A DNA stretch of 64,000 bases, from assembly GCA_000531095.1 (NCBI GenBank), contig HG799464.1, positions 312,841-376,840 of the forward strand. The letters run 5' to 3'. The position numbers and the translations under genes are program-made. Source of the DNA: Gemmata massiliana. GTDB taxonomy: Bacteria; Planctomycetota; Planctomycetia; Gemmatales; Gemmataceae. Below, piece after piece: positions 47,537 through 58,130 of this stretch. How positions within the stretch are numbered: the first letter of the stretch is position 1; each line of letters begins with the position of its first letter. The notes beneath the pieces were generated by a model that saw only the letters and a program-made list of their open reading frames with translations, made no database searches and was not told the origin of the DNA.

Positions 47537-47562
47537 GTCCGATAGTAAATGTTATGTAATGA
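47537..47562 (+). promoter_or_regulatory. AT-rich motif, copy 1 (candidate operator)
   Basis: GTCCGATAGTAAATGTTATG plus TAATGA. It matches the motif at 51541-51566 (reverse complement) at 20 of 26 positions and that at 51605-51634 with a 4-nt insertion. It lies 140 bp upstream of the TIM-barrel gene at 47703. It may be a repressor site or a small dispersed repeat. Confidence 0.4.
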
Positions 47563-50540: not shown

Positions 50541-51494
50541 ATGGTTTCAGAACCGTTGCCGTTTGAACAAGACATCCACGAACTCGAAATCGAACTTGCG
50601 CGTCTGGAAACAAACCCAGACGCTGAGGGGACTGGCGAAACGATCAAGAAAGTTCGCCGAGATCTCGTTGCGCTGAAGAAGCAGAAGTACTCGAATCTGA
50701 CGGCCTGGGAGACGATTCTGGTGTCGCGTCACCGCGACCGACCACAGTTCCTCGATTACGTGGATATGGTGTTCGAGGAGTTCGTTGAACTCCACGGCGA
50801 CCGGGCCATCGGTGACGACCGAGCGATTCGCGCTGGTTTCGCTCGCTTAGACGGCCAGAAAATCATGCTGGTCGGTCACCAGAAAGGTAAGACACTCGCA
50901 GAACGGCAACAGTGTTACTACGGCTGCGCGCACCCGGAGGGTTACCGTAAGGCGCTCGCAAAAATGCGTTTGGCGGCCAAATACCGGATTCCTATTGTGT
51001 GTCTGATCGACACTCCTGGAGCTTTCCCGGGCATTGGTGCTGAAGAGCGCGGGCAGTCCCAGCTCATCGCGACCAGTATTTTGGAAATGACGAAGCTAGC
51101 AACACCGATTGTCTGTGTCGTGATCGGCGAAGGCGGCTCCGGCGGCGCACTAGGCATCGGAGTCGGCGACTCAATCGGGATGCTTCAGCACGCATATTAT
51201 TCCGTCATCAGTCCCGAAGGATGTGCCGGCATCCTGTGGAAAGTCGCGACGGACGAGTCGAAGCCACGAGCGGCAGACGCACTGAAACTAACTGCCGCCG
51301 ATCTTAAACGATTTGGAATCATCGACACGATTGTCTCCGAGCCGCTCGGCGGCGCCCACCGCGACCCGCGGGGAATGGGGACAAATCTCAAGACACACCT
51401 GTCTCGTGAGTTACGCGGCCTAGTTTCTCAGACTGATGAAGCACTTCTCGCTGGTCGCTACAACAAGTTCCGACAGATGGGCTTCTTAGCTTAG
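50541..51494 (+). CDS. accA: Acetyl-CoA carboxylase carboxyltransferase subunit alpha
   Basis: 317 aa, the usual length. 'FEQDIHELEIELARLE', 'WETILVSRHRDRPQFLDYVD', 'ELHGDRAIGDDRAIRAGFAR', 'CLIDTPGAFPGIGAEERGQS', 'GEGGSGGALGIGVGD' and 'YSVISPEGCAGILWK' are AccA signatures. With AccD it transfers the carboxyl group from biotin-BCCP to acetyl-CoA, giving malonyl-CoA. accB, accC and accD are not in the window. It lies 41 bp after the kinase gene, and its own ribosome binding site (AAGGTGA) is visible. Confidence 0.96.
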   Translation: MVSEPLPFEQDIHELEIELARLETNPDAEGTGETIKKVRRDLVALKKQKYSNLTAWETILVSRHRDRPQFLDYVDMVFEEFVELHGDRAIGDDRAIRAGFARLDGQKIMLVGHQKGKTLAERQQCYYGCAHPEGYRKALAKMRLAAKYRIPIVCLIDTPGAFPGIGAEERGQSQLIATSILEMTKLATPIVCVVIGEGGSGGALGIGVGDSIGMLQHAYYSVISPEGCAGILWKVATDESKPRAADALKLTAADLKRFGIIDTIVSEPLGGAHRDPRGMGTNLKTHLSRELRGLVSQTDEALLAGRYNKFRQMGFLA

Positions 51495-51540: not shown

Positions 51541-51634
51541 ACATTACATAATATCAATTATCAGACCTAACCCAATCCCACACCAATTGTTGGCAATAAA
51601 TTAAGTCCGATAATGTATCTTATGTGTCTAATGT
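51541..51634. promoter_or_regulatory. AT-rich inverted motif pair upstream of the six-gene operon
   Basis: 51541-51566 and 51605-51634 are imperfect inverted copies of one AT-rich motif; the right arm carries a 4-nt insertion and begins GTCCGATAATGTATCTTATG. Between them CCAA/TTGG (51583-51593) forms a small inner stem. The right arm ends 66 bp before the ATG at 51700. Either an operator with two half-sites or the terminal inverted repeats of a tiny non-autonomous element. A related copy is at 47537-47562. Confidence 0.45.
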
Positions 51635-51699: not shown

Positions 51700-52983
51700 A
51701 TGCGAACTCTAAAAGACGGCGTGCCGAGCCTTCGTTGCGGGATGATCGGCTTTGGCATGATCTTCGACGAGACTTATCGCCCCGTTTTTGAACACTGCCC
51801 TTCGTCGCTTCTTTCTTTCAGCGGTTCGCCTTTCAACGCGGAGCTTTGTGCCGTTGCAACGCGAACCGGTTCGCGTGCGGCGCGCTACCTCGCATCTAAA
51901 ACTGAGCAAGCGTCGTTTCAAAACTTCTCCGGTCCAAACGCGGTTTCGCGACTTCTCGCTTCCGGTGTGGACGTGGTCTGCGTGGCGACGCCCGACGATC
52001 GACACTTCGAGGCCGCCCGAGACGCGATTCGCGCCCGCAAGCACGTCCTGATTGAGAAACCTTCAGTCCTTTCTCTTTCGGAACTGGATGAACTGACACG
52101 ACTTGCGACCGAGAATGAAGTGCTGGCAAAGGTCGTTTACCACAAACTTGCCGACCCCGACCACAAAAAGCTCCGCACCCTTTACCGAGACGGCGTGCTG
52201 AAGCACGTCAACAACGGGTACTGCTCGTTGCTCGAACCCAAGTCGATTAGCGGTGGACAGTTCGCCGAGTGGATCACCGGCCGCAATCCGGCCACTTACG
52301 TCGCGGTCCATTACCTCAAATTGATCGACTTTACTTTCGGCCCGAATTGGTCGCTGGACCGCGTATCTGCGACCGGACAACGCGGGCTGGTTGGTCCGGC
52401 TGACGGCCCGACTTGGGATTCGGTTCAGCTTCAAGTTGTTTACCGGCATCCGGATACACGAGAAGCCGCGTTCGACATTCACACAAGTTGGGTCACGCCT
52501 GATAACTTTCCGGGATACGTCGAACAGGAGGTTCAGTTTCGTTTCGACAATGCAGTTTGGTCGGCCCACCAGCGTAAACGCGGCGTCGAATTGACCGTAG
52601 AAAATCGCACTCCGGGCGAACTCAAGAACACCCCGAACTATCACTACAACGGAACGTTTCTCGAACCGTGGGGAGAACGATCTCAACGCGGCTACGGGAT
52701 CGAAGTCATCGAGCGGTTTTTCCAGGAAGCGGCGTTCGTCGAGTTCGATGGGCCGAGCGAACAGCGGAATCAGCGTCTCGCGCAAATGCGAACACTCACC
52801 TACAACGACATCACGGCCGACCGGAACTGCGTCGCGATCGTCCAGAGTCTCGAAGCAATTCTCGCGCGAGCGGCTGGGGGCGCTCCCGGTTGTCTCGTCA
52901 AGGTGAATGGTTCCGCAGGTGGCCTCGCTCTTTACGAACCCGGCAACGCAAAACCGCTCGTCCTATACGAAGGACGGGTGTAA
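51700..52983 (+). CDS. Gfo/Idh/MocA family oxidoreductase
   Basis: 427 aa. Rossmann start 'LRCGMIGFGMIFDETYRPVF', then 'VDVVCVATPDDRHFEAARDA' and the family hallmark EKP in 'HVLIEKPSVLSLSELDEL', with 'VVYHKLADPDHKKL'. These NAD(P)-dependent enzymes oxidise or reduce sugars, inositols or related compounds. It is longer than the usual 330-390 residues because of its C-terminal part. No Tat signal, unlike many planctomycete paralogs, so it is cytoplasmic. First gene of a tight six-gene run; the kptA start codon is 2 bp after its stop. Confidence 0.88.
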   Translation: MRTLKDGVPSLRCGMIGFGMIFDETYRPVFEHCPSSLLSFSGSPFNAELCAVATRTGSRAARYLASKTEQASFQNFSGPNAVSRLLASGVDVVCVATPDDRHFEAARDAIRARKHVLIEKPSVLSLSELDELTRLATENEVLAKVVYHKLADPDHKKLRTLYRDGVLKHVNNGYCSLLEPKSISGGQFAEWITGRNPATYVAVHYLKLIDFTFGPNWSLDRVSATGQRGLVGPADGPTWDSVQLQVVYRHPDTREAAFDIHTSWVTPDNFPGYVEQEVQFRFDNAVWSAHQRKRGVELTVENRTPGELKNTPNYHYNGTFLEPWGERSQRGYGIEVIERFFQEAAFVEFDGPSEQRNQRLAQMRTLTYNDITADRNCVAIVQSLEAILARAAGGAPGCLVKVNGSAGGLALYEPGNAKPLVLYEGRV

Positions 52984-52985
52984 CT

Positions 52986-53531
52986 GTGGACGAAAAGAAG
53001 CGCGTTCGGCTCAGCAAGTTTCTGTCAAAAGTGCTGCGTCACGAACCAGAATCGATTGGTATCACACTCGAATCGGGCGGTTGGGTACTCGTTACCGACC
53101 TACTCTCCGGACTGGAAAAAGCCGGTACACGCACGTCGCGTGAAGAGCTGAACCTCGTTGTCACAAAGTGCGAGAAACAACGATTCGCATTCGACGAGAC
53201 GGGCACAAAGATTCGCGCCAACCAAGGCCATTCGACGGACGTCGATCTGCAACTCGAAGTGACCGCCCCCCCGGCGGAACTGTTTCACGGAACCGCACAC
53301 ACCACTGTGCCCGTCATTCTCCGCGACGGCCTTCTCAAAATGGCCCGGCACCACGTTCACCTGTCGGCCGACCCCGTCACCGCCACCAATGTCGGTCAGC
53401 GACACGGGAAACCGGTTATACTCGTGGTTGATACCGCGAAAATGCGGGCCGATGGGCACATTTTTTATCGCTCCACCAACGGCGTGTGGCTTGTCGAACA
53501 CGTTCCACCACAGTACCTTCGGGTGCAGTAA
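52986..53531 (+). CDS. kptA: RNA 2'-phosphotransferase (Tpt1/KptA)
   Basis: 181 aa from GTG 52986. All KptA motifs are present: 'LSKFLSKVLRHEPESIGI' with R18-H19, 'TKIRANQGHS' with R77, 'LFHGTAHTTVPVILRDGL', 'HVHLSAD' and 'VGQRHGKPVILVVD' with R139. These are the R-H-R-R set that in yeast Tpt1 transfers the RNA 2'-phosphate to NAD+, giving ADP-ribose 1'',2''-cyclic phosphate. Yeast uses it in tRNA splicing; the bacterial purpose is unclear, possibly repair of 2'-phosphate RNA ends. It sits between an oxidoreductase and an aminotransferase gene with gaps of 2 and 19 bp. Confidence 0.93.
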   Translation: MDEKKRVRLSKFLSKVLRHEPESIGITLESGGWVLVTDLLSGLEKAGTRTSREELNLVVTKCEKQRFAFDETGTKIRANQGHSTDVDLQLEVTAPPAELFHGTAHTTVPVILRDGLLKMARHHVHLSADPVTATNVGQRHGKPVILVVDTAKMRADGHIFYRSTNGVWLVEHVPPQYLRVQ

Positions 53532-53550
53532 AAGTACCCGGAGATTTCAG

Positions 53551-54954
53551 ATGCCCCCACCGATCCAGCACCTGCACGAGCCGGACTCGAACGCCGGCCG
53601 CGCGGAACTCGCTCGCGTCGAACCGTACTCGCTCCGCACGTTCACTCCCACCCAGGCCGTTCTCGCCCAAAGTGCGGGAATCTACCACTGGACTCCCGAA
53701 GGGCGCCGACTCTACGACTTCTCCTCCGGCGTACTCGTTTCCAACCTCGGTCACAACCCCGCAAACTGGCTGCGCGGATATTTTCGCTACATGAACTGGA
53801 ACACCGGAGAAGTCACTAACTCCGTACAGCCAGTGCAGGTTCCGCTCGGGTTTACGCCGGCCGTACCCATGACGGCCTACAACGCGATCACGTCCGTCGA
53901 AGTCGGGGCCACCAAGCGCTTGCTCGAATTGATGCGCAAAGCCCCCGGCGGCGGGCGGATGGAACAGGTGATGTGGGCCGCGTCGGGATCGGAAGCCATT
54001 CAGAAAGCACTTTGGGCGTCCCTCGCACGCGACCGCACGCGACCGATAATCCTGGCCACGCGGTTCGGCTTTCACGGTAAGAAAGGTCTGGCGAACGCCG
54101 TAACGGGTTCCGAAACCGACACCGAGCGTGATCCGCGTGTCCGGTTCATTTCGTTCCCGATGGCCGAATGCCACGATGTTGCCACGCGCGACGAGCCGTT
54201 TAACTTCGCTCCCTACCAGAGGGAGTTGGACGCCCTGCTCCACCAGTTCGGGGCGAAAATCGGCACACTCATTACGGAGCCGTACCTCGGCGGCGGCGGT
54301 TCATATCACCCGCCAAAGGCTTATCTCCAGGGCTTGCAGCAGTTCTGCCGGGCCAACGACATCACCTTGATCCTCGACGAAGTGCAATCGAACTTCGGTC
54401 GAACGGGGGCGATGTTTGCCTACGAGACTTACGGCCTCGAACCGGACGTCGTAGTGTTAGGGAAGGGGCTCGGGAACGGTATCCCTGTAGCGGCCGCTGT
54501 GGGGCGCGCGGAGATCTTCGGCTCTCTGGGATACGGCGAAGGCTCCGACACTTGGAGTGCGAACCCGCTCTGTTGCGCGGCCGTACAAGCTACATTGGAC
54601 GAATTCGAGCGGCGCGACGTGATCGCGGGCATGAAGGCCAGCTCCGCGATCATCGAAAACGGCCTACTCGCGCTGAAAGAGTTCCCGTTCGTCGCGCACG
54701 TTCGCGGTGAACTCGGCGGAATGGTTTGGGGCGTCGAAATGTGCGACCGTGGTAACCGCACCGCCGCGGAATGGGCGAACGAGTTCGTGCTCGCATGCTA
54801 CCGGGGCGACGGCCAGTGCCCCGACGGCATTCACCTGCTCGGTCCGCTCGCGAAGAAAGTTGTTCGGATCTCGCCTCCGCTCGTCATTACAACAGAAGAA
54901 GCGACTGCCGCGATGAACCTGATGCAGCGCTGTGCCCGCCGCCTGCTCGGTTAA
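53551..54954 (+). CDS. Class III (PLP) aminotransferase
   Basis: 467 aa from ATG 53551. 'YDFSSGVLVSNLGHNP', 'MWAASGSEAIQKALWAS', 'FGFHGKKGLANAVTGS', 'LILDEVQSNFGRTGAMFAYE' (Asp276 contacts the PLP ring nitrogen) and 'VVLGKGLGNGIPVAAAVG' (PLP Lys305) define an acetylornithine/GABA/4-aminobutyrate-type aminotransferase. The N-terminal 40 residues and the long 'MNWNTGEVTNSVQPVQVPLG' stretch differ from canonical ArgD or GabT, so the substrate is uncertain. Third gene of the run; the metal permease start follows 15 bp after its stop. Confidence 0.9.
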   Translation: MPPPIQHLHEPDSNAGRAELARVEPYSLRTFTPTQAVLAQSAGIYHWTPEGRRLYDFSSGVLVSNLGHNPANWLRGYFRYMNWNTGEVTNSVQPVQVPLGFTPAVPMTAYNAITSVEVGATKRLLELMRKAPGGGRMEQVMWAASGSEAIQKALWASLARDRTRPIILATRFGFHGKKGLANAVTGSETDTERDPRVRFISFPMAECHDVATRDEPFNFAPYQRELDALLHQFGAKIGTLITEPYLGGGGSYHPPKAYLQGLQQFCRANDITLILDEVQSNFGRTGAMFAYETYGLEPDVVVLGKGLGNGIPVAAAVGRAEIFGSLGYGEGSDTWSANPLCCAAVQATLDEFERRDVIAGMKASSAIIENGLLALKEFPFVAHVRGELGGMVWGVEMCDRGNRTAAEWANEFVLACYRGDGQCPDGIHLLGPLAKKVVRISPPLVITTEEATAAMNLMQRCARRLLG

Positions 54955-54969
54955 TCAGACGAGGAACTC

Positions 54970-55971
54970 ATGCCCGATGTGTGGATGGCGGATCTGATCC
55001 AGTGGATCGCTCACGTTGCGGGGGTGGAATACCCCTTCGTCGTGAAGAGTATCCTCACCATCGTCGTCATGTGTCTGTTGTGTGGCACGGTCGGTGCGAT
55101 GGTCGTCGGTAACCGGATGGCGTTCTTCAGCGACGCGATGGCCCACTGTGCGTTCGCGGGCATCGCGTTAGGTTTTCTAACAGTGCTGCTCAGCAACCTT
55201 GGTACCAACGCGGCCGCGTGGCTGGTCCCACTCATCATGGTGGCTTTTGGTGTGGTCGTCGGGGTCGGAATGATCTACGTGCGCGACCGCACCAATCTCG
55301 CCCACGACACCGTCATCGGCGTCTTCTTTGCCCTCGCTCTCGGTTTCGGAGCGATGCTAACGAAGTTGGTGCAACGGGTCAGCAGCCAAAACCTCGAAAC
55401 GTTCCTGTTCGGGAACCTCACTCTCATTCCCGAAATGCACCTCCTCTACCTGTGTGGTGCGCTCGTCCTTGTGTGCCTTGTGTTCCTGTGGCGGTACAAC
55501 CAACTCATGTTCGCGAGTTTTAACGCCAGCCTCGCGCGCACGCGGCGGATGAACGTCAGCTTCAACAACTACCTGTTCATCATTCTGCTCTCGCTGGTCG
55601 TGAATTTGTCGATCCAGGCGGTTGGTGCGCTCCTCATCAACGCGCTCCTGGTTGTCCCCGCCGCCGCCGCCACGAACGTCTCACGGAACATGCGCCAGAT
55701 GTTCTGGTTCACGATCGCGTTCTCCCTCTCCGCGGGGCTCATCGGGTACTCTCTGAGTTCATGGACGGTCACCGTCGGGCCGATTCGCGACGTCCAATTC
55801 AGTCCCAGCGGGGTTATCGTGGTCGTGACGGTCGGGATGTTCTTCGGGTCGATGGTCGTGGTCGCAGTGTGGAACCGGTTCGCCCCGATCTTCGGCGGGA
55901 AGCAGTTCCGCGGGTTCCACGGCCCGAACGACCCTTGCGGCACCGATCACCCGTTCGGACAATGCCCCTAG
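54970..55971 (+). CDS. Metal ABC transporter permease, ABC-3/ZnuB type
   Basis: 333 aa with about eight transmembrane helices and GAGGAAC before the ATG. 'VVGNRMAFFSDAMAHCAFAG', 'FGNLTLIPEMHLLYL', 'NLSIQAVGALLINALLVVPA' and 'AAATNVSRNM' match the ZnuB/MntB/TroC family that imports Zn2+ or Mn2+. The C-terminal tail (after about 300) carries His and Cys ('GFHGPNDPCGTDHPFGQCP'). The matching ATPase (ZnuC) and binding protein (ZnuA) are not adjacent, so either they lie elsewhere or this permease is used differently. Two more metal-linked membrane genes follow. Confidence 0.88.
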   Translation: MPDVWMADLIQWIAHVAGVEYPFVVKSILTIVVMCLLCGTVGAMVVGNRMAFFSDAMAHCAFAGIALGFLTVLLSNLGTNAAAWLVPLIMVAFGVVVGVGMIYVRDRTNLAHDTVIGVFFALALGFGAMLTKLVQRVSSQNLETFLFGNLTLIPEMHLLYLCGALVLVCLVFLWRYNQLMFASFNASLARTRRMNVSFNNYLFIILLSLVVNLSIQAVGALLINALLVVPAAAATNVSRNMRQMFWFTIAFSLSAGLIGYSLSSWTVTVGPIRDVQFSPSGVIVVVTVGMFFGSMVVVAVWNRFAPIFGGKQFRGFHGPNDPCGTDHPFGQCP

Positions 55972-56037
55972 CCCCGAACCCACTTAGGGATTCGGGCGTA
56001 TTAATTGTGTCCCACCGTTCCCGCGTCGGGTGATCTG

Positions 56038-57027
56038 GTGCAGCCAAGTATTTACGACTTCCTCTTTCGCTTCAGCGCCGTCTTGTGGGAGGCGATGCCG
56101 TTCGTCGTCCTCGGCGCGCTCATCGCCGGCATCCTCGAAGAGTTCTTACCGCAAGAGTTCCTCACGCGGTTGCTGCCGAAGTCCGTGCTACCGGCCGTCA
56201 TGATCGGTGCGGTCCTCGGTCTGCTCTTCCCGATGTGCGAGTGCGGCATCGTGGTCGTGATGCGCCGGCTGCTCCGCAAGGGGCTGCCGCTCTCGTGCTG
56301 TATCGCGTACATGTTGGCCGGGCCGATCATCAACGTGGTGGTCATCTTCAGTACGTGGGTCGCGTTCCGCGATCACAAGATCGGGCCGGAGATGGTCGGG
56401 TTCCGGGTGGGGATGGCCTTCGTCATCGCGTGCGCGACGGGGCTGATCGTTCACCTTCAGTACAAGAAGTACGGCAACGCCCTTCTGACCCCACTGACCG
56501 CACCGCCCGCGACACCGCCGGCAGAAACGAACGAGCCAGTGGCGGAACAGCCCCGGCAGCCGTTCATGCAGCGATTGGGGAACATCTCCGCGACGGCGCT
56601 CCATGACTTCGTGGACATCATGGTGTTCCTGATCCTCGGTTCGGTGCTGGCCGCGTTCGCGCGGATGTACATCACCGAAAACGAAATCGAGGTCATCTCG
56701 CGCGACCAGCCGTTCCTCGCGATCCCCGCGATGATGTTCCTCGCTGTTATGATGTGTTTGTGCAGCGAAGCCGATGCGTTCGTGGCCGCGAGCTTCACCA
56801 AGTTGCACCTGTCGGCGAAACTCGCGTTCCTCGTTTTGGGGCCGATGCTCGACCTGAAACTGATCCTGATGTTTACGCGCGTGTTCCGGCTCCGGCTCAT
56901 TGTCACGATCGCAACGTCCGTAGTTATTCTGACGCTCGTTCTGTGTATCGGGCTCCACCTCGTTTACCAAGCTAACGGCTGGACCGGGTTGCCCCCCAGT
57001 GCCTTGTCCAGTTCGACATTACCGTAG
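56038..57027 (+). CDS. Permease of the DUF318/ArsP (YcgR-like) family
   Basis: 329 aa from GTG 56038 (GGGTGAT nearby); a TTG 11 codons earlier is also open. About eight to ten transmembrane helices in two halves separated by a cytoplasmic Pro-rich linker (about 155-180). The core motif 'GLLFPMCECGIVVVMRRLLR' with CEC, and the second-half 'MMCLCSEADAFVAASF', are the duplicated motif of PF03773. Relatives include ArsP (organoarsenical efflux) and Bacillus YcgR, which is zinc-regulated together with YcgQ. Here a YcgQ-like gene follows 21 bp downstream, supporting the YcgR assignment. Substrate unproved. Confidence 0.85.
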   Translation: MQPSIYDFLFRFSAVLWEAMPFVVLGALIAGILEEFLPQEFLTRLLPKSVLPAVMIGAVLGLLFPMCECGIVVVMRRLLRKGLPLSCCIAYMLAGPIINVVVIFSTWVAFRDHKIGPEMVGFRVGMAFVIACATGLIVHLQYKKYGNALLTPLTAPPATPPAETNEPVAEQPRQPFMQRLGNISATALHDFVDIMVFLILGSVLAAFARMYITENEIEVISRDQPFLAIPAMMFLAVMMCLCSEADAFVAASFTKLHLSAKLAFLVLGPMLDLKLILMFTRVFRLRLIVTIATSVVILTLVLCIGLHLVYQANGWTGLPPSALSSSTLP

Positions 57028-57048
57028 GGCGAACAAGGAGACACGATC

Positions 57049-58077
57049 GTGGCACACAATCACGCCGGGTGTCAGTCGCCGCGCGACTACTTCACCGAGC
57101 AACTCCTCACCATTCTGGTGTGCGGGGGGCTCGCGTTCGTGGCCGTGCAGCTCTACCGGTACGACATGTTGAGGCACATCCTCGCCCCGCAGTTCCACCT
57201 GCCGGTGCTGATCGGTGGCATCGCGGTGTTCGGTTTAGTCGTGTTACGTGCCGTCGCGGTGTGGCGCGAAGCGGGGGCGCTGGTTCCCGTGAGCGACGAC
57301 CCCATGTGCCAACAGAACCACGTTCACACAGCGAGCTGTAACCACCTGCCGGGGTTGCCGGGCGGGGAACCGGACCCGAACCTCGTGGACGATCACGGTC
57401 ACAGTCACGACATGTCGTGGATGTTCGCCCGGATGCTCATCCTGGTCTTCCCGATCGCGCTCTTCAGCCTCGGCATCCCGAACTCGGGCCTGAGTAGCGA
57501 AGCGCAGCGCAAGGCACTCGGCCAGGACGTGTCCCTCGACCCGGTGATGCTCAAGGAAATGGCGAAGGCGAAAACCACCAAGGTCGAAGAAGAGTCGTCC
57601 GCTTCTGACGGGGCCGTCACGCGCACGCTGCGCACCGAATCGGGCCTCATGATCCGGGAGATGATTGCGAAGGACGGAACGGAGACGTATTCGGTCATCG
57701 CGCAGGGCGGCGAGGAAATGCGGTTCAACACGCTGACCGAGGCCGCGTTCGACGCCGACAAGCGCAGGTCTTACGCCGGCCAAACGGCGATCATGGAAGG
57801 ACGGTTCAACCCGATCGTCGGCGGTAGCGGTAAGGAATTCACGCTGTTCCGGCAGAAGATGACGTGCTGCGGTTCGGACGCGGTGCCGCTTAAGGTGCGG
57901 ATCGTCTCTCCGCAAGCCGTCGACCGAAAGTATTTCGACTGGGTGCGGGTAAAGGGCGTCGTTCAGTTCCGGCAAGTGCCCGGCCAGGACCGCTACATCC
58001 CCGTGCTCATGCTCGGGGACGTGACCGACATCCAACTCATTCCGAACGACCAGGTCAAGAACGAGTACGAATTCTAA
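57049..58077 (+). CDS. TIGR03943/YcgQ-like membrane protein
   Basis: 342 aa from GTG 57049 (AAGGAG nearby). Two N-terminal transmembrane helices (about 17-35, 50-68), then His/Cys-rich loops that look metal-binding ('CQQNHVHTASCNH', 'DDHGHSHD'). A third helix (about 122-144) and a soluble C-terminal domain with 'TLFRQKMTCCGSDAVPLKVR' and 'WVRVKGVVQF', the signature of TIGR03943, follow. In Bacillus the homolog YcgQ is encoded next to permease YcgR under Zur control. The pairing is reproduced here, so zinc or another metal is the likely cargo or cofactor. The operon ends at a strong hairpin. Confidence 0.85.
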   Translation: MAHNHAGCQSPRDYFTEQLLTILVCGGLAFVAVQLYRYDMLRHILAPQFHLPVLIGGIAVFGLVVLRAVAVWREAGALVPVSDDPMCQQNHVHTASCNHLPGLPGGEPDPNLVDDHGHSHDMSWMFARMLILVFPIALFSLGIPNSGLSSEAQRKALGQDVSLDPVMLKEMAKAKTTKVEEESSASDGAVTRTLRTESGLMIREMIAKDGTETYSVIAQGGEEMRFNTLTEAAFDADKRRSYAGQTAIMEGRFNPIVGGSGKEFTLFRQKMTCCGSDAVPLKVRIVSPQAVDRKYFDWVRVKGVVQFRQVPGQDRYIPVLMLGDVTDIQLIPNDQVKNEYEF

Positions 58078-58084
58078 AAGATAC

Positions 58085-58126
58085 GTCCCTTGGGAACGCG
58101 GCGAAATACCCGCGTTCCCAAGGGAC
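58085..58126. terminator. Bidirectional terminator between convergent operons
   Basis: GTCCCTTGGGAACGCGG (58085-58101) pairs perfectly with CCGCGTTCCCAAGGGAC (58110-58126), 17 bp with an 8-nt loop, 8 bp after one stop and 5 bp after the other. The T-tracts are minimal, but the stem is very strong. Confidence 0.75.
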
Positions 58127-58130
58127 AAAC

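Follow-up and report, generated by a model that had tools for sequence, protein, structure and literature searches.

Inverted pair of dif-like sites beside a conserved metal-permease gene row, with kptA as a probable late passenger, in Gemmatales

We analyzed a 64,000-nucleotide stretch of the Gemmata massiliana genome, hereafter the window. Six plus-strand open reading frames, gfo-kptA-amt-znuB-arsP-ycgQ, follow one another from position 51700 to position 58077 (Table 1). Their coordinates gave gaps of 2, 19, 15, 66 and 21 bp, reproducing the six same-strand genes and the spacing reported in a preliminary description of this DNA. Two 28-bp dif-like sites, each with an 11-6-11 layout, form an inverted pair with 34 bp between them. 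The pair follows accA at 47 bp and precedes gfo at 70 bp. The limits of the 28-bp sites were set from conservation.

Table 1 Features of the six-gene row and of the dif-like sites, in window coordinates
Feature	Position	Strand	Remarks
Third dif-like site, solitary	47537..47558	+	1 mismatch
Left dif-like site (11-6-11)	51541..51568	-	XerD-type arm outwards; pattern match 51545-51566, 0 mismatches
34-bp loop between sites	51569..51602		Unrelated or inverted in relatives
Right dif-like site	51603..51630	+	Pattern match 51605-51626, 1 mismatch
gfo, Gfo/Idh/MocA-type oxidoreductase	51700..52983	+	PF01408 (GFO_IDH_MocA), 72.8 bits against cut-off 24
kptA, RNA 2'-phosphotransferase (Tpt1/KptA)	52986..53531	+	GTG start; Pfam PTS_2-RNA; NCBIfam PRK00819.1-4
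amt, class III aminotransferase	53551..54954	+	PF00202 (Aminotran_3)
znuB-like ABC-3 metal permease	54970..55971	+	PF00950 (ABC-3) over cut-off
arsP, ArsP_1/YcgR-type permease	56038..57027	+	GTG start; PF03773 (ArsP_1) over cut-off
ycgQ-like protein	57049..58077	+	GTG start; PF21537 (DUF1980_C) over cut-off
18-pair stem-loop, likely terminator	58084..58127		Consensus scan; between the ycgQ-like gene and a convergent gene

All six row proteins scored above the Pfam cut-off for the domain listed in Table 1. For amt, no NCBIfam equivalog exceeded its cut-off among those displayed, and the PDB matches for amt and gfo indicated broad families only. The znuB-like permease fell short of the NCBIfam equivalogs ZnuB (84.1 of 284 bits) and AztB (112.3 of 280 bits), the arsP protein fell short of SO_0444 (87 of 300 bits), and the ycgQ-like protein of TIGR03943 (55.8 of 88.8 bits). 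The names ZnuB, YcgR and YcgQ in the preliminary description therefore hold for the Pfam domains but not for the equivalogs, and with all four cut-offs missed, a zinc specificity of the row is something that we infer. Our literature search for YcgQ or YcgR together with zinc returned nothing, PMC2770081 included. A promoter scan of the row found one site compared with 1.4 in shuffled sequences, a result too weak to speak on internal promoters.

We then compared the row across 102 genomes of the order Gemmatales. The amt gene was matched in 90 of them (E≤1e-80), and 77 loci were mapped, 76 of which contain amt. At 67 of these 76, gfo lies on the same strand within 1.2 kb upstream of amt, and two of the remaining nine loci start at the contig edge. 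Downstream of amt, within 8.5 kb, a znuB match is present at 64 of the 76, and some of the other 12 end early. As far as the contigs extend, all six genes are present in 17 of the 19 genomes of the window's own genus; the other two, G011 and G017, have the row without kptA, with gfo-amt distances of 53 and 65 bp in the alignments. Members of the sister family (G037 and G040) also carry the row without kptA. Homologues keep the same order in many related genomes, the outcome of a gene-order check that the preliminary description had suggested, and this order is not due to chance. Judged from these sequence comparisons, the older core across Gemmatales is gfo-amt-znuB-arsP-ycgQ. Neighbours of the row in other genera (an HD domain protein, an M17 aminopeptidase and a glyoxalase) revealed no pathway.

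The preliminary description had called znuA and znuC missing. This is correct for the operon but not for the genome, where a ZnuA-like/ZnuC-like pair lacking a permease occupies another locus. On contig C5, a second ZnuA-like binder gene overlaps the following ATPase gene by 4 bp; the best NCBIfam match of that ATPase is ZnuC, below the cut-off, and no permease match was found on the contig. In the first 30 loci compared, including that of the genome itself, a znuC match adjoins the znuA homologue in 28, with one of the two misses ending at a contig edge; znuC also stands beside znuA in 9 of 11 further genomes, the exceptions being G043 and G046. No permease query matched around these znuA-znuC loci, in flanks of about 1.5 kb for the 30 loci and longer ones for the rest. 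The genome has three ABC-3 permeases, namely the one in the row and two in a manganese-type cluster. The likeliest arrangement is a single importer with split genes, in which the row's ABC-3 permease would work together with the binder/ATPase pair encoded at the other locus, and ArsP and YcgQ may handle the same or a related divalent metal. Such a system would resemble a ZnuABC-type importer with a YcgR/YcgQ pair in its ABC-3, ArsP_1 and DUF1980_C domains, and would differ from it in having the permease gene apart from the binder and ATPase genes and in scoring below the NCBIfam equivalog cut-offs. The apparently missing znuA and znuC are thereby given a likely place.

The manganese-type ABC cluster (L107:5973-10614) comprises a binder, an ATPase, two permeases and MntR-like parts, and its binder gene is interrupted by in-frame stops in this assembly. 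The genome also has a xerC-like gene (L106:7464-8368, minus strand), located about 600 bp from znuA, which fits a dif reading of the sites described below. A frameshift divides this gene in the assembly; its two pieces share one frame in all five relatives where both were found.

In different genomes, the DNA upstream of gfo contains AT-rich blocks that are almost the same and are inverted relative to each other, with unrelated loops between them. A comparison of left and right sites from 44 genomes showed an inner arm with GATAA at its end, then a 6-base centre that varies, then an outer arm that opens with TTATGT, and co-variation of the two sites within genomes extended through position 27 (44 pairs). 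Conservation and within-genome co-variation together delimit two 11-bp arms around a 6-bp centre, the layout described for dif in passages of PMC2958812, PMC5052618 and PMC12907356. The form TTATGTTTAAT, frequent among outer arms, agrees with an Acinetobacter XerD arm at 10 of 11 positions, whereas the inner, XerC-type arm is less like known ones, matching an Acinetobacter XerC arm at 7 of 11. The site pattern matched three times in the window, compared with 0.01 matches expected in shuffles, and the 9.27-Mb genome has no further match at up to three mismatches. The third match, which is solitary and 4 kb upstream of the pair, has counterparts at that place in G008 and G012, and also in G002 and G001, where mismatches are more numerous.

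The inverted pair was seen in at least 67 of the 102 genomes scanned: at 45 of the 77 mapped loci, at 16 of 20 further loci and in at least six more genomes among the matches listed. The distance between the 21-base cores of paired sites ranges from 30 to 74 bp overall and from 31 to 74 bp at the 45 mapped loci. At up to one mismatch, 89 of the 102 genomes matched the site pattern, 60 of them with exactly one match per strand, and 13 had none; a reversed-pattern control matched in 8. Matches cover 40 of 44 genera in both families, usually as one pair per genome. When we searched a collection of 84,980 species for the exact twin pattern, 43 stretches were returned, all planctomycete by record title, including one titled Zavarzinella formosa, two Kuenenia and one Singulisphaera. 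The loci of G081, G083, G025 and G099 (L385, L404, L398 and L399, respectively) showed a single site, whose core is perfect, indicating that the second site can be lost. Between the sister genomes G034 and G074 (L199 and L200), the loop is inverted (z 9.1 inverted vs. 2.9 direct), and it is likewise inverted between G091 and its relatives. Over evolution, therefore, the two sites undergo exchange or the element inverts.

The 6-base centre follows a strict rule. Its last base, position 15, beside the XerD-type arm, was identical between left and right sites in 0 of 65 pairs from 32 genera, compared with 36% identity between genomes; when each genus was represented by a single genome, zero identity was not reached in any of 20,000 permutations. 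The first centre base was identical in 59 of the 65 pairs. General avoidance of long palindromes would not pick out one position and so does not explain the rule. The 65-pair table omits G040 (weak arms), G072 (whose arms fall on two contigs), genomes in which one arm matched at 1 mismatch (G014, G021, G025, G066, G075, G077-G079, G081, G083, G099, G103, G114 and G115) and genomes whose positions were not among the matches listed (G036, G038, G039, G042 and G108-G110). It also omits G017, whose second arm has more than one mismatch; this genome was later seen to have a pair that obeys the rule as well.

An inverted repeat between two genes could instead be an RNA hairpin, acting as a terminator or attenuator, or a Fur/Zur-type operator pair for gfo. 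The closeness of the pair to accA and gfo fits this idea, as do the ability of the arms to pair, the co-variation of outer-arm positions 22-27 within genomes and the presence of one Fur-family gene in the genome. We nevertheless consider it unlikely, for the 6-base centres mismatch (at position 15 in 65 of 65 pairs) while the flanking blocks are nearly invariant, the element has no Rfam match, and one pair per genome persists where gfo or accA is elsewhere. In G081, the element lies at 6.30 Mb and amt at 2.71 Mb, 3.6 Mb apart, and there too the element is opposite a DnaA-like gene.

We next located the element on the chromosome. Eight chromosomes could be measured: six from single-contig genomes, the other two being the largest contigs of G016 and G012. 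In these, 42.6-50.0% of the circle separates the element from a DnaA-like gene (327-380 residues), a reference gene that we chose after the table had been seen and that starts the record in four chromosomes. Measured by hand from the stronger DnaA homologue, the element lies at 30.8-49.1% of the circle. Twelve genomes had been examined, and G000, G013, G045 and G050 were left out of the distances because of their contigs or because no element was known in them. With the DnaA-like gene of our choice, the element thus takes the terminus position expected of a dif in all eight chromosomes. Each of the twelve genomes has two or more DnaA-domain genes, and the shorter one starts four records though it scores lower.

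Base composition was examined as well. The cumulative GC skew of the window is highest at 51,263, close to the left site (about 280 bp away), but fitting the skew with two segments favors 32.9 kb over 51.5 kb. Of 19 loci flanked on either side by 4 kb or more, 18 showed a higher GC skew on the left; because the loci are related, these are not independent tests. The octamer GGGNAGGG, examined as an FtsK-orienting (KOPS) sequence that should converge on a dif, occurred 58 times in convergent and 11 times in divergent orientation, compared with 35 and 14 for the control GGGANGGG, and other 8-mers were equally biased.

The layout, conservation and position of the sites and the base rule lead us to favor, if with little more than even confidence, a head-to-head twin dif at the terminus of Gemmatales chromosomes, with XerD arms facing outwards, centres kept different and each site pairing with its sister copy. 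From the sequences, their conservation, their position and the base rule, which are what we observed, we infer recognition by Xer and every step of the reaction. Each site would recombine with its own copy on the sister chromosome, leading to dimer resolution. Since the XerD-type arms face outwards, FtsK moving along either chromosome arm would meet XerD first. According to a passage in PMC5052618, the first strand exchange at dif is made by FtsK-activated XerD; the constant difference at position 15, beside the XerD arm, should therefore keep the two sites apart and would stop recombination between left and right. The element resembles the chromosomal dif of XerCD/FtsK in its 28-bp 11-6-11 layout, its TTATGT-type outer arm and its once-per-genome locus near the point opposite the origin. 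Known dif, however, is one site per chromosome, whereas here at least 67 genomes have two inverted copies, with centres always different at position 15. A 2011 survey by Kono et al. (PMC3025954) obtained dif predictions for 641 organisms and, by its authors' account, failed in Cyanobacteria and Planctomycetes. If our reading is true, the twin sites would be the dif that this survey missed in Planctomycetes and would represent a new layout for chromosome dimer resolution. An order-wide pair with so strict a base rule makes planctomycete dimer resolution, and the reason for having two sites, directly testable.

The place of kptA in the row was then analyzed. KptA reached 255.8 bits, exceeding the family cut-off of 239 (NCBIfam equivalog PRK00819.1-4), and its catalytic Arg-His-Arg-Arg tetrad corresponds to R18, H19, R66 and R121. 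The tetrad is kept in every linked KptA that covers the position (22 or 23 of 24). The protein is thus like known KptA/Tpt1 enzymes in passing the family cut-off and keeping the tetrad, and its gene differs in being placed in a metal-permease row in six genera. Passages in PMC6582358 and PMC6333775 still call the role of bacterial KptA unclear, and repair and toxin-like roles are discussed in parts of PMC9503650 and PMC11833690.

A KptA match was found in 41 of the 102 genomes. In 24 of these it lies in the row (24 of the 76 amt loci, in six genera of one family): 17 in the window's genus plus G111, G113, G116, G063, G077, G092 and G071. Another 16 genomes carry kptA elsewhere only, with no row genes found beside it, and the match in G011 was treated as spurious (E 9.3e-4, 57 residues, on another contig). 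Neighbourhoods of kptA away from the row were mapped at L080-L089. At 23 linked loci kptA is flanked by gfo and amt. The remaining one, in G071, has lost gfo and retains a 46-residue remnant of kptA just before amt. The kptA of G092 is frameshifted and split between two frames. In both of these genomes amt and the permeases persist.

On a KptA tree, the 24 linked rows required two label changes, compared with a mean of 16.1 after shuffling, and on a quickly built operon tree kptA presence required eight changes, compared with about 20, although such counts cannot separate gain from loss. A single origin of the linked rows appeared in 26% of the bootstrap trees, and beside or inside the linked rows fell four unlinked ones, of which two belong to another family. 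The g50 rows of the operon tree are based on amt alone and have an unsure position. G092 fits a single insertion poorly: its operon proteins are nearly identical to those of G031, which lacks kptA, and this calls for either another arrival of kptA or its recent loss. The simplest history suggested by these comparisons is one main insertion and several losses: kptA would have been inserted between gfo and amt at a later time, mainly in a single event within one family, and would have been lost repeatedly since.

The preliminary description had proposed that kptA, gfo and amt, together with the permeases, form an RNA-repair or stress unit governed by metal status. An absence of kptA-permease linkage in relatives, which it had named as part of a refutation, was not what we observed, since kptA stands ahead of the permeases in all 17 genus members with a full kptA and at seven more loci in five other genera; each of the 24 linked loci has a permease downstream, and only 2 bp separate gfo from kptA. 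However, the core persists without kptA in two of the 19 genomes of the genus as well as in other genera and the sister family, two copies have decayed while amt and the permeases stay, and 16 genomes keep kptA only away from the row genes. These observations do not support a functional RNA-repair/metal module, and nothing found in this analysis links KptA to metals. Nor does any near match of the motif upstream of gfo precede znuA in 29 upstream regions, the same result on which we dropped a zinc-operator reading of the element. We therefore regard such a unit as quite improbable. The dif-like terminus sites next door offer another reason for the conserved neighbourhood of the row, and for the original finding they are a warning not to take conservation of gene neighbours at the terminus as proof of a common function. 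As a passenger, kptA would probably be co-transcribed in the row, and KptA would most likely be an ordinary NAD-dependent enzyme acting on RNA 2'-phosphates or RNA ends, with no tie to metal status. That kptA is retained in 17 of 19 genus members allows for some use of it within the operon. An old row, a late passenger kptA, a split importer and an inverted dif-like Xer pair at the terminus together make up the explanation that we consider reasonably probable as a whole.

Inverted dif-like parts are known from other settings. Passages in PMC5357621 describe CTX-phi attP as two inverted dif-like sites about 90 nt apart, and passages in PMC12907356 describe pdif modules flanked by oppositely oriented Xer sites. 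The Gemmatales pair is like CTX-phi attP1/attP2 and Acinetobacter pdif in its inverted dif-like sites, but it has no phage or cargo and is kept vertically at one chromosomal place across the order. We have not seen a chromosomal twin kept across an order described; in our literature search, which left most subscription journals outside, no title or abstract on planctomycete or inverted dif described the element. That the pair is a remnant of an Xer-using mobile element, a CTX-phi-type attP or an emptied pdif fixed early in the order, is suggested by these precedents and by the extra solitary sites in some genomes, but it is very unlikely, since both families and 40 of 44 genera have matches, mostly a single pair in each genome, and the 30-74 bp between cores leave no room for cargo. 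A viral scan with one site gave at least 120 matches, where chance matches are expected.
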